From Synergistaceae bacterium (GTDB taxonomy: Bacteria > Synergistota > Synergistia > Synergistales > Aminobacteriaceae), in the NCBI GenBank assembly GCA_017405525.1, contig JAFRAH010000016.1:1-64000 (forward strand): a stretch of 64,000 nucleotides of DNA. The letters are read 5' to 3'. The translations under genes and the position numbers were made by a program. The notes beneath the pieces were generated by a model. That model ran no database searches. It was not told where the DNA came from and saw only the letters and a list, made by a program, of their open reading frames with translations. Each line of letters starts with the position of its first letter. The first letter of the stretch is position 1. Below are positions 9,085-57,010 of the stretch, in pieces.

Positions 9085-10137
9085 ATGAAAAGCATGTTTA
9101 TGATGGCGGCAGGGCTTCTGCTCTGCTTGATGGTTCTGTTTCTCCTTTATTCGTCGGGAACTTTCAGGGGAACAAAAATGTATAACCTTGCTTTCAGGAA
9201 AAAGGAAAACGGTGATTTCTTCCACCTCAATGATGATTACTGCTTTGAACAGTATGACGTTGACCTTGGCGGAAGATACTGGCTTGCTGATCCATTCCTG
9301 TTTGAGCACAACGGCAGGGATTATGTCTTCTATGAGGCATATGACCTTTGGAGCGGTAAAGGCAAAATAGGCTTCAGTGAAATAGACCCGCAGGCAAAGA
9401 AACTCACACCTCCCCGCATAATCCTGGACAAGCCCTATCATCTTTCATGGCCTAATGTCTTTGAGCTCGGCGGAGAAATCTACATGATGCCCGAAACTTG
9501 CGGCGATTACCGCGTAAGGCTGTTCAGGGCCGTGAACTTCCCCTACGACTGGGAAGAACACTCAATCCTCGTCAATGACATCTGGGCGTGCGACAGTATC
9601 ATCATGAATGGCAGCGACGGCCGGGCAAAATACCTTCTTGCCTCAGAGCAGTACCACAACACACCGACAGGCAGCTACCCGTCATGCTACGTCAAGAATA
9701 TTCTCTTCACCTTCAGTTCCGGGGACAGCCTGAGACTTGAGCCTGAAGGCAGCATTGACCCTCAAGGAACTGTAACGAGAAGGGGCGACTACGGCATCAG
9801 GAACGCCGGGCAGTTCTTCATGTCCGAAGGTATGCTGCTGAGACCAGGTCAGGACTGCAGGAACAAGCAGTATGGCCGCGGGGTTGTGTTTTTCCGGGTG
9901 GACAGCCTTGAACCGTACAGTGAGCATGAAGTTTTCAGCATTGACTGCGGGAATATAGGGCCTCACCTCAGACAGGACTATGTGAAGGAGCTCATAGGAC
10001 TTCACACGTACAACCAGAGCAGGAATTTCGAGGTCATAGACTTTGCCGGGATAAGGAGCACCACGCTTGAAACAAGGATTGCCAGCAAACTTTTCACGCT
10101 GTGGAAGATGATGCGCAAACTTTACCGCATGATATAA
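9085..10137 (+). CDS. Membrane-anchored GINT1-N-like (beta-propeller) protein
   Basis: A 350-aa protein with an N-terminal hydrophobic anchor (residues ~3-24) and then a soluble domain rich in aromatic repeats: YWLADPFLFEHNGRDYVFYE, GKIGFSEID, YHLSWPNVFELGGEIYMMPE. These recall the five-bladed, GH43-like domain at the N-terminus of glucosamine inositolphosphorylceramide transferase-like and formyltransferase-like sugar proteins of glycan clusters. Enzymatic activity is not established. AGGAGG 7 bases before ATG 9085 fixes the start. It is followed by the phase-variable glycosyltransferase, whose promoter lies over this gene's stop codon. A shared role in surface glycan assembly is inferred. 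Confidence 0.7.
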   Translation: MKSMFMMAAGLLLCLMVLFLLYSSGTFRGTKMYNLAFRKKENGDFFHLNDDYCFEQYDVDLGGRYWLADPFLFEHNGRDYVFYEAYDLWSGKGKIGFSEIDPQAKKLTPPRIILDKPYHLSWPNVFELGGEIYMMPETCGDYRVRLFRAVNFPYDWEEHSILVNDIWACDSIIMNGSDGRAKYLLASEQYHNTPTGSYPSCYVKNILFTFSSGDSLRLEPEGSIDPQGTVTRRGDYGIRNAGQFFMSEGMLLRPGQDCRNKQYGRGVVFFRVDSLEPYSEHEVFSIDCGNIGPHLRQDYVKELIGLHTYNQSRNFEVIDFAGIRSTTLETRIASKLFTLWKMMRKLYRMI

Positions 10138-10138: not shown

Positions 10139-10169
10139 CCTTCACAAAAATTTTCCGGGAGGTACTTTC

Positions 10170-11442
10170 ATGAGTGAGCAGCAAAAAAATACGCAGTTAA
10201 TACATAGGGGGGGGGGGGCATAAGAAACGTAAGACCCTAAAATCCAAAGTAAAGAGCTTTCTGGACTTTATCGGGCTCAAACATAACCTGCGCACAAAAA
10301 TCAGAACCACCCTCCGCAAAATCACAGGACGCTACAAGCCATTCATCCCCAACGTCAACAAGACCAGCTACAACAAGAGGTGTCTTCTCTCCTACGTCAC
10401 AGCACCGTTCACCGCAAAGAAAATCAGCGACAGCCACCAGAACCAGCAACAGGCCGTAGAGATGGCCAGGATTATCGGGACTTTCGGCTACAATGTCGAT
10501 GCCGCAATGTTCTCGGACACTGACGCTCTCAGGAAGATAACGCAGAAATATGACCTGATTATCGACATCAGGGCACGTGAACCGGGCTTCTGGGCCAAGA
10601 ACATGAACGACGGCTGCAAGCTCGTAGTCTACTCCACAGGCAGCAGCCACAAGTTCGCGCGGGAGGGCGAGAACAGGAGGCTCTCAGACCTTGAGCAGAG
10701 GCGCGGGGTAAAGCTCCAGCCACGAAGGACAGCAAGCCTGATTCTTGAGAACGAGCTGCAACTACGGAACGCGGACGCATTCTGGCACATCGGGAACTCC
10801 TACAACGTCCACACCTACGACTACATAGGCAAGCTCCCTCCCACATCACTCATCAAGAACACGGGCTACAATTTCGGCTGGGTTAGGACGGACATCGTGA
10901 GGGACAAACATAACTTCCTGTTCTTTGCGAGTGCTGGTCAGGTTCACAAGGGGCTTGACCTACTCCTTGAGATTTTTGGGCGTGAAGGTTTCGGTCTCAA
11001 CCTCTACATATGCAGCAGCTTCATGAACGAGGAGGACTTCTGCGAGGAATACAGTCATGAACTTTTCGAGCGTCCGAATATATTTCCCGTTGGTTTTGTG
11101 GACATTAACGGCCAGGAGTTCAGGGAGATAACGGAGAAGTGTGCTTTCGTCATAATGCCGTCATGCTCTGAAGGGTGCGCTGGAAGTATACTAACTGCAA
11201 TGTCAGCCGGGCTTATCCCGATTGTCAGCAGGGTTTGCGGAATTGACGGGGAGGGGCAGATCATCCTTCCTGACTGCAGTCTTGAGACGATTGAACGCTA
11301 CATCAACGAGTACTCATCAAAGCCTGACGAATGGATACGTGAACGCTCCATGCAGTGCCTCAATGACGCAAGGACTATCTACAGTTTTGGGAGTTTCACG
11401 CAGTCAGTACATGACGCAATGGCATCTTTGACCGCAAATTAG
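10170..11442 (+). CDS. Phase-variable GT4-like glycosyltransferase (frame broken by a G12 tract)
   Basis: A good start exists at ATG 10170 (GGGAGG 7 bases upstream), but its frame ends after 17 codons at TAA 10221, just past a run of twelve G (10207-10218). The frame that resumes at 10219 is open without a stop to 11442 and encodes a glycosyltransferase: KKRCLLSYVT-like N-terminal region, then FASAGQVHKGLDLL and MPSCSEGCAGSILTAMSAGL, typical of the GT4 donor-binding half. With 11 or 14 G the two parts join into one protein (423 aa at G11). Reading only from the internal ATG 10462 would remove about 90 N-terminal residues. I read this as a slippage-controlled ON/OFF gene in the OFF state; a sequencing error in the run is the alternative. 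Confidence 0.8.
10207..10218 (+). repeat. Homopolymeric G12 tract (contingency repeat)
   Basis: Twelve consecutive G, 13 codons into the glycosyltransferase gene. G11 or G14 would restore the frame; G12 gives a 17-residue peptide. Tracts this long inside genes are rare except at phase-variable loci. Confidence 0.93.
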
Positions 11443-54571: not shown

Positions 54572-57010
54572 TTATTCCGCGAAAATTCTTCGGAGCATGT
54601 ACGATTTCATCAGGTTGTGCATCGCGTAGGTTTCCCCCGACACAAAATTATTCTCGCCCTCAGTGAAGAACTGCCCTGTGTCATTCCTGGAGACCATCCC
54701 GGAGATTACGCCCAAGTGTTCGCCCGCCCAGTCAGAAGCCTTGAGGCCGTAGGGACATTCACCGTCAAGCCCGAAAACTTCAGCTATCGTGTCAGTCAGG
54801 TAGAAGCCTGCGTACCATTTCCCGCCCCAGTCGTTCACGCCGGGCATGTTCACTTCAGGGGAGGGTCTGCCGTCATCAGTGCGCTCGTAGAAGTGATGTC
54901 CTGCCTTTGAGCTGTCGTAAGTGCCTAAGTCGACGCTGACCAGTGCGGTAAAAATCTTGTCGGCGTTGAAGGTTGATGCCCCCGGAAATTCCCTGCCAGC
55001 AAGTCCGTAGATTATCGCCGTGTCAATCATCCCCTCAAGTATCACGTTCATGTAGTCGATGTGAACTAGCCCATGATTTATGACCGTACCGTCAGAGTTC
55101 AGGTTTGACCCGTGAAGAACGTCAAAGGCCGTAACGTCTTCGGGGCGTGCAGTCGAGGACATGAGGAGCTCCGTCAGTTTGTCCTGCCACTTGTGATTGT
55201 TCGGGTGCTCAGGAAGCATACACACAGCAAGCGAAAGTATCCTGGAGTTCCAGGCGTTCTCCTCGCCTTTTGTGTCGTTGTCGTGAACTAGCCTGCCGTT
55301 CTCGTCCCTGAAGTAGGGCACTCTGTAGTCATTGAAGCGGTCTGACTCACTCACGAGCATGTTGACCACATAAGAACGGTCAATGTCCTCCAGTTCGTCC
55401 CACAAGAGCCAAGCCGCGAACGCAATATTCTCTGCCCACAATGCACTCTGCCACTGACTGCCCCAGCCTGAAGCCATGTTCGAGCAGTGAGACCTTGCCA
55501 GTGAAGCAACCAGTTTCACCGTCATGGCCTGAGCGTCCTCCTGACTTATGCCGGTTATGTCCGGGTCATAGAGGCCGAACTTGAGGGCTGAGGCCACAGT
55601 GAAGCACAGATGCCCCCAAGGACGCAATGAGTTTTCCTGCTGTGTGCTGTCTATGACGTTGGGCAGGTAAAGGTAGCGTTCATTCCGCCAGTTCGTGAAT
55701 GAGGCTGAAGACTTCCTGATTTCGTTTTCCTCGAACGCCGATAATTCCCCGCTACTGTATACGAAGCTCGAAGACTTCAGGAAAGCCTGACGTTGCCCGC
55801 TGTTCCACTGAGTATTCAGAAGGTACTTGAGGTTTTTGGCGATGATGTCCGAAAGAGTGCCGGGCATTCTCTGAGTGTTTATCCTGCTCCATTCAGGGAG
55901 GCGGACAACTGAGGGAGTGATCTTGTGCCTTGCATGTGCAACCCCTAAGCCAGCTCCTGCAGCAATCACAGCAAGAAGGACAAAGGCCACGTTCAGGCGG
56001 AAGTCTGAGCTCCTTCCTGCGGCGGCCTTCAGCTTTGTGCGTGAAAATATTTCGTTGAGGAGGTAAAGCAATGCCATAGTGAGAAGGAAAATGATTAACC
56101 CTGAGAACTTGGCGTGAAGCTCAATGTGAAAGCTCCGTGCCAAAAAAGACACAAGCCTTGTCGCTGCGTGGATGACAATCTGGTTCATGCAAACATAAAT
56201 GATTGAGTTTCTGCCGATGTACTGAAGGTGTGAGTCTAGTTTTGAGGTCTTAAAGTATGAGTGTATCAACTTGGAGAGGTTGAGGCCAACGATTGAAGAA
56301 ACCAGCGCATTAACGAACGAAAATATCATGCCCCCCCCCCCATTGCCATAAATACCTAGTCGCATGTTCACGTAGCCATTCATGAAGATCATTGCTGTAG
56401 CTACAACCCCGGCAATAAGCGTCTGAGGCAGTGATAGCGTGAAGAGTTTTCCGTGAGTGGTGAGCAAATATCCCGCGTGGTAGAGACCAAGCCCAACACA
56501 TGAAGCACCAAAAGCCCAATACAGACGGAAAGGCCAGACATGATAGGCAGTGAGCCCGAACATGGTCAACAGGATGATGATGACGTTGCGGGTGAACTTA
56601 TTGCGGACAAAGATGGAGAGCGCGTAATACATGCATTGTGTGAGGAACAAGGCAGTGAGAAACCATAAAGCCCCCGCCAATCCTAGACCTTCGGTGTTCA
56701 CCAAGAGAAGATGCCTCAGCATGGAGAGGTAATCTAGTCCCCTGCGATTCATGTAGAGCCACACGAGATAGTGAAATGCCCCGAAACATACATAAGGGAT
56801 TAAGAGAGTACGAGCCTTCTTCCTGACAACCGACAAATAATTACGCTCTTCAGGGTTGAAGAACATTCCCGACACGAAAAAGAACATTGGCATGTGGAAG
56901 GCATGAATGAAGTAGTCAAACCTTCCACCAAAGCCTATATGCCCCATGACCATGAAGATTATTCCGAAAGCCCTGAAGATGTCTACATAGTCAACCCTTC
57001 TGACACTCAT
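54572..57010 (-). CDS. Acyltransferase-3 fused to an alpha/alpha-barrel domain, phase-variable
   Basis: An 812-aa protein. Residues 1-~340 are a ten-helix acyltransferase 3 domain (YVDIFRAFGIIFMVMGHIG; FHMPMFFFVSGMFF) that typically O-acetylates surface sugars. After a further helix (~345-370), residues ~390-812 form a helical domain resembling polysaccharide lyase/hydrolase (alpha/alpha) barrels (LRPWGHLCFTVASALKFGLY; GWGSQWQSALWAENIAFAAW; HGSNLNSDGTVINHGLVHIDYM). A G11 run (minus strand) at residues ~224-227 (GNGGGGM) is inside the membrane part; the frame is intact at G11 and breaks with G10 or G12. GGAGGC precedes the ATG. It lies between the sugar-binding protein gene and rhaM. Confidence 0.8.
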   Translation of the reverse strand: MSVRRVDYVDIFRAFGIIFMVMGHIGFGGRFDYFIHAFHMPMFFFVSGMFFNPEERNYLSVVRKKARTLLIPYVCFGAFHYLVWLYMNRRGLDYLSMLRHLLLVNTEGLGLAGALWFLTALFLTQCMYYALSIFVRNKFTRNVIIILLTMFGLTAYHVWPFRLYWAFGASCVGLGLYHAGYLLTTHGKLFTLSLPQTLIAGVVATAMIFMNGYVNMRLGIYGNGGGGMIFSFVNALVSSIVGLNLSKLIHSYFKTSKLDSHLQYIGRNSIIYVCMNQIVIHAATRLVSFLARSFHIELHAKFSGLIIFLLTMALLYLLNEIFSRTKLKAAAGRSSDFRLNVAFVLLAVIAAGAGLGVAHARHKITPSVVRLPEWSRINTQRMPGTLSDIIAKNLKYLLNTQWNSGQRQAFLKSSSFVYSSGELSAFEENEIRKSSASFTNWRNERYLYLPNVIDSTQQENSLRPWGHLCFTVASALKFGLYDPDITGISQEDAQAMTVKLVASLARSHCSNMASGWGSQWQSALWAENIAFAAWLLWDELEDIDRSYVVNMLVSESDRFNDYRVPYFRDENGRLVHDNDTKGEENAWNSRILSLAVCMLPEHPNNHKWQDKLTELLMSSTARPEDVTAFDVLHGSNLNSDGTVINHGLVHIDYMNVILEGMIDTAIIYGLAGREFPGASTFNADKIFTALVSVDLGTYDSSKAGHHFYERTDDGRPSPEVNMPGVNDWGGKWYAGFYLTDTIAEVFGLDGECPYGLKASDWAGEHLGVISGMVSRNDTGQFFTEGENNFVSGETYAMHNLMKSYMLRRIFAE
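56331..56341 (-). repeat. Homopolymeric G11 tract (C11 on plus strand)
   Basis: Eleven consecutive C on the plus strand, reading as G11 in the acyltransferase frame. Like the G12 tract at 10207 it lies inside a surface-modifying gene and would shift the frame on any single-base slip. Confidence 0.95.

Follow-up and report, generated by a model that had tools for sequence, protein, structure and literature searches.

A G12 tract at the start of a glycosyltransferase gene in a Synergistaceae genome: a probable contingency locus within a genus-wide set of G-tracts

The window, which is the whole stretch of 64,000 nucleotides that was analysed, carries one long G-tract at the start of a glycosyltransferase gene and another within an acyltransferase gene. 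The features at these two sites are as follows.

9085-10137, forward strand: upstream neighbour with a GINT1_N domain (PF24793, E = 2e-30; Pfam)
10156-10162, forward strand: Shine-Dalgarno sequence CGGGAGG (read directly)
10170-10223, forward strand: N-terminal frame from ATG 10170, MSEQQKNTQLIHRGGGA followed by a stop (translation)
10187-10202, forward strand: weak copy of the flanking motif, AAATACGCAGTTAATA, 4 nt 5' of the G12 tract (position-weight score 5.0)
10207-10218, forward strand: G12 tract, the proposed switch (sequence and frame analysis)
10219-11442, forward strand: remainder of a GT4-type glycosyltransferase, open if the tract has 11 or 14 G (frames, Pfam and a homologue)
54572-57010, reverse strand: acyltransferase-3 gene, 812 amino acids, in frame (ON) as assembled (frames and Pfam)
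56331-56341, reverse strand: G11 tract within the acyltransferase gene, with GGTATTTATGGCAAT 5' of the tract (motif score 6.4)

As assembled, the frame that opens at ATG 10170 is closed by a stop at 10221-10223, the eighteenth codon, one codon 3' of the G12 tract. The original prediction had described the Shine-Dalgarno sequence, the start codon and the twelve G correctly, and had put this stop 13 codons past the tract, where it does not lie. From 10219 to 11442, 407 codons are open in a frame other than that of the ATG. The two frames are joined only at one G fewer (G11) or two more (G14), as had been proposed, and the product at G11 is predicted to be 423 amino acids long. The downstream part matched PF13692 (E = 9e-9) and PF00534 (E = 3e-7), both above the curated cut-off, and judged by this match to GT group-1 domains the open frame is a GT4-type glycosyltransferase, in agreement with the prediction.

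One homologue, 31% identical and from a different family of the order, could be aligned with the extended frame from residue 43 onwards; residues 1-42 have no counterpart in the homologue. The internal ATG at 10462 corresponds to residue 82. Because the alignment begins 5' of this methionine, a start at 10462 is unlikely and 10170 is the better candidate; the earlier preference for 10170 is borne out, and the converse case, that homologues begin at the 10462 methionine, does not hold for this one homologue. Searches with the glycosyltransferase gave no homologue in 36 genus relatives, no match among named genomes and, by sequence, no match among solved structures. The gene at 9085-10137 possibly lies in the same operon as the glycosyltransferase. 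Its GINT1_N domain takes its family name from a glucosamine inositolphosphorylceramide transferase.

Markov models of order 1-5 gave an expectation of 0.01-0.02 G12 tracts in the window and 0.3-0.7 in the genome, and the homopolymer at this reading-frame start is beyond chance. The runs of G or C in the window are no longer than 7, apart from those of 11 and 12. The genome (2.17 Mb in 43 contigs) contains 23 such runs of at least 9, eight of them of at least 12; these 23 tracts are mostly intragenic and lie largely in surface-glycan genes. Places with G10 were found in 35 of 36 genus relatives, often tens and up to 242 per genome, and the other nine families of the order have none or a few (overlapping places counted in both cases), the exceptions being about ten places each in three genomes of family f4 and one of family f5. 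By these counts, G-tract enrichment is genus-wide in rumen Synergistaceae and weak or absent in the other families of the order. Within the genus, G017, G022, G024, G027, G032, G061 and G062 are rich in tracts and G015, G020 and G066 poor in them. Where a genus relative has a name, it is a metagenome assembly of rumen Synergistaceae or 'Fretibacterium'.

The surroundings of 95 tracts from four species were analysed, of which 68 interrupt a sense frame of at least 150 amino acids at some tract length, the longest-frame criterion being approximate near gene ends. As assembled, 25 of these 68 genes are in frame, near one third, which is about the expectation for random lengths modulo 3. In six pairs of homologues the tract occupies the same region of both genes, and the frame is joined across it in one species but interrupted in the other: L012/L137 (53% identical over 335 amino acids), L013/L103, L021/L093, L023/L099, L134/L127 and L092/L109. 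G007 and G020, a near-identical pair, have G7 and G9, respectively, at one shared position in a histidine kinase gene. The claim that the glycosyltransferase gene is a phase-variable contingency locus gains support from this comparison, and a one-base change in length joins or breaks the frame at the G12 tract as well. Tract lengths in relatives, which had been put forward as a check, do differ at other loci of the set; for the glycosyltransferase itself the 36 genus relatives offered no homologue to compare.

By Pfam, the tract genes belong mostly to glycan families, and their families include GT2, GT4, GT10, TOD1/MUCI70-like, LicD, pyruvyl transferase, sulfatase, acyltransferase and hexapeptide transferase. 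An amino-acid permease and a hybrid histidine kinase are among the exceptions to this glycan and surface set. In some further genes the tract lies near the N-terminus and reads as C on the sense strand. At L022, L107, L138 and L147, an intergenic C-tract separates a -35-like from a -10-like box ahead of a gene. The tract of the hybrid histidine kinase is found at the extreme C-terminus in several species (L104, L122, L149-L178), where only the last residues would be switched. A lipoprotein-like protein of 901 amino acids with a weak MACPF match (L027:5735-8437, reverse strand) has G10 near its N-terminus, and its homologue in G032 (L140) has G12. Two loci of G032, L130 and L145, have near-identical tract flanks upstream of two different genes, with a TATATAAT-like sequence 3'. 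A few tracts overall occupy apparent promoter spacers (TTGACA-N19/20-TATAAT), and both translational and transcriptional switches are therefore likely.

Among 43 genus genomes, mutS was present in all and mutL in 39, indicating that slippage would proceed without help from mismatch-repair loss. In G062, mutS is seemingly split by a frameshift at about codon 244 (L239, G062:C138), which is an assembly error or a real lesion. A phase-variable mutS was considered and rejected, as the split gene has no G-tract there.

Long tracts tend to have a motif, approximately GYAAWWTTAC, on their 5' side at a distance characteristic of the species. Expectation-maximisation on 140 flanks from eight species returned approximately T-R-M-G-Y-A-A-W-W-T-T-A-C, with a likelihood gain of 302 as against 54-70.5 in shuffles. 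When species were taken singly, G017, G062 and G032 showed a clear gain and G000 a weak one, and the motif is weaker overall in the genome of the window. A simple pattern (GTAA, 2-4 nt, TA, 0-9 nt, a non-G, then G9) gave 132 matches in 34 genus genomes compared to 10 for the reversed pattern, and outside the genus 10 compared to 5 in 127 genomes of the order. Before G4-G8 runs in the same loci the motif was almost never present. The 3' flank of the tracts favours YAYTAA (26 matches compared to 1 reversed), with A at +2 in 74-82%. In the window, the motif at the G12 tract is marginal, its score of 5.0 being exceeded by about 2% of random positions in the genome, and that at the acyltransferase G11 tract (6.4) is modest; the claim for the motif thus rests on the genus and not on this locus.

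Several readings of the motif were rejected. A general genomic repeat or uptake-type sequence does not agree with tract-free sites, which are mostly at background, or with intermediate G-runs, which are not enriched. A general companion of poly-G would not give so few matches in the 127 other genomes of the order, nor the lack of an excess in virus contigs. Dispersed repeats were also set aside, since flanks match past the motif mainly between homologous genes.

The G of the motif fell in all three codon positions, with 26, 19 and 6 strong cases; the third phase is depleted, and would often put TAA in frame. The motif is strong at 17 of 27 tracts outside sense genes, and it stays on the G strand where the gene runs the opposite way (L116, L133, L135). 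Its occurrence in all codon phases, between genes and at genes on the opposite strand indicates that it acts at the DNA level. The median distance from GTAA to the tract is 12 nt in G027, 13 in G017 and G062, 14 in G022, 15 in G024 and 16-17 in G012, G010, G031 and G032. This spacing differs among species (Kruskal-Wallis p = 3e-11, with sites treated as independent), and the few homologous sites shared between species should blur the difference and not sharpen it. A negative correlation between spacing and tract length, seen in G000 and G017, was lost when species were pooled (r = -0.20, p = 0.11) and was discarded. In the histidine kinase, the gene of tract-free species ends in CCG GAG AAA ATC ACA CAG (EKITQ), and that of long-tract species in CCC AGT AAA ATT ACG CA-Gn (SKITQ), where the change from Glu to Ser creates GTAA. 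Species with G5-G9 mostly retain Glu. Since the species with Ser group together in the tree of the histidine kinase gene, they need not represent many independent events.

We consider it very probable that the glycosyltransferase gene is a simple-sequence contingency locus and one of a genus-wide set of motif-linked tracts. Long tracts, frames that differ between species in being joined or broken, restriction to the genus and a shared motif all emerge from comparison of the genomes. G-tract slippage is an established switch mechanism in other genera, and slippage in the tract is sufficient for the switch. We infer that slipped-strand mispairing is the cause here, that it switches the gene within populations and that the sequenced copy is OFF. 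Mispairing would change the tract by single bases; at 11 or 14 G the GT4 enzyme would be made, and at the assembled 12 G only its first 17 residues. The addition of one sugar to a surface glycan, a role suggested by the enzyme family, would be toggled among cells.

The part played by the motif is more tentative. A DNA-binding or DNA-processing factor dedicated to the genus may read GYAAWWTTAC and, at a distance fixed for each species, initiate, lengthen or stabilise G-tracts, a proposal that we regard as possible, with the balance against it. Such a putative factor, bound to the motif, could create, keep or tune the tract, and the spacing would then reflect its action over a set distance. Homopolymer contingency loci are not known to require anything beyond the repeat. 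If the proposal is true, hypermutable switches would be placed by a sequence-specific system and not by unaided slippage. The presence of the motif in unrelated genes, in all phases, on both strands and at a spacing set by species suggests sequence-specific control of tract formation or stability.

Long G-runs are known to permit slippage in transcripts, and slippage of RNA polymerase or the ribosome might yield some full-length product from an out-of-frame copy, the tract being a device for dosage and not an on/off switch. This would fit all the sequence data here, but it does not predict that the lengths in homologues spread across three frames, and we hold it to be rather unlikely. About equally unlikely is that the motif is the -10 box of a promoter that points away from the G-tract and contains the tract in its spacer, transcription varying with tract length. 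The arrangement can be read at L022 (TTGACA-N20-TATAAT), L107 (TTGACA-N19-TATAAT) and L138 (TTGACG-N20-TATAAT), where the gene starts 46-91 nt beyond the boxes. However, the -35 side of the 68 genic tracts was no better than shuffled flanks (z = -1.1), a result on which an antisense promoter at genic tracts was rejected, and the most conserved position of the motif is a G outside the -10 hexamer in either direction. A promoter therefore fits a few intergenic sites only.

A true tract of 11 G, miscounted in the assembly or consensus, would leave the gene simply on, with no biological switching. Homopolymers are error-prone, the named relatives are metagenome assemblies, a single base restores the frame, and the consensus length may reflect a choice made in assembly. 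One-base errors, though, cannot produce the long tracts themselves; about two thirds of tract genes are out of frame in four separately assembled species, and genes free of tracts, such as mutS, are mostly intact. We judge such an error improbable. The motif and tract together could also be a mobile-element scar or a micro-insertion, as a unit of about 35 nt is common to unrelated sites. We found no convincing target-site duplications or inverted repeats around the tracts; in the histidine kinase the tract lies at a gene end that is already G-rich in tract-free homologues, the same gene has G5, G7-G9 or G9-G14 in different species, and virus contigs are not enriched (6 matches compared to 12 for the reversed pattern), which together make either origin very improbable. 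That the out-of-frame glycosyltransferase is a decaying pseudogene is the least credible account: no homologue was found in the 36 genus relatives searched and constraint may be weak, but 407 codons are open 3' of the tract with the GT4 domain intact and no other lesion, and many tract genes have the same pattern with joined homologues elsewhere.

With the contingency reading preferred, and on the sequence evidence above, the G12 locus belongs with the poly-G contingency loci and lies in a phylum for which we found no report of phase-variable repertoires in the open-access literature, the only kind searched. Large phase-variable repertoires would thereby be extended to uncultured rumen bacteria. 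A flanking motif for G-tract switches was likewise not found described in open-access literature, which is weak evidence of its absence.

Poly-G contingency loci have been described in Helicobacter canadensis (PMC2823697), an example alongside Campylobacter, Helicobacter and Neisseria. The words flanking, motif or conserved sequence do not occur in that paper (PMC2823697), and it is from this wording that the contrast with the Synergistaceae tracts, which tend to follow a conserved DNA motif at a distance set by species, is drawn. Like the poly-G loci of Campylobacter, Helicobacter and Neisseria, the tracts described here are long, lie in glycan and surface genes, would switch frames, in some cases at the C-terminus, and form a genome-wide set of 20-30 loci. 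Unlike them, they occur in the phylum Synergistota, with mutS and mutL present. In Neisseria, porA and fetA have tracts in the promoter spacer. A few intergenic tracts here resemble these, being flanked by TTGACA- and TATAAT-like boxes ahead of genes, whereas most are without a -35 box and lie within the genes themselves.
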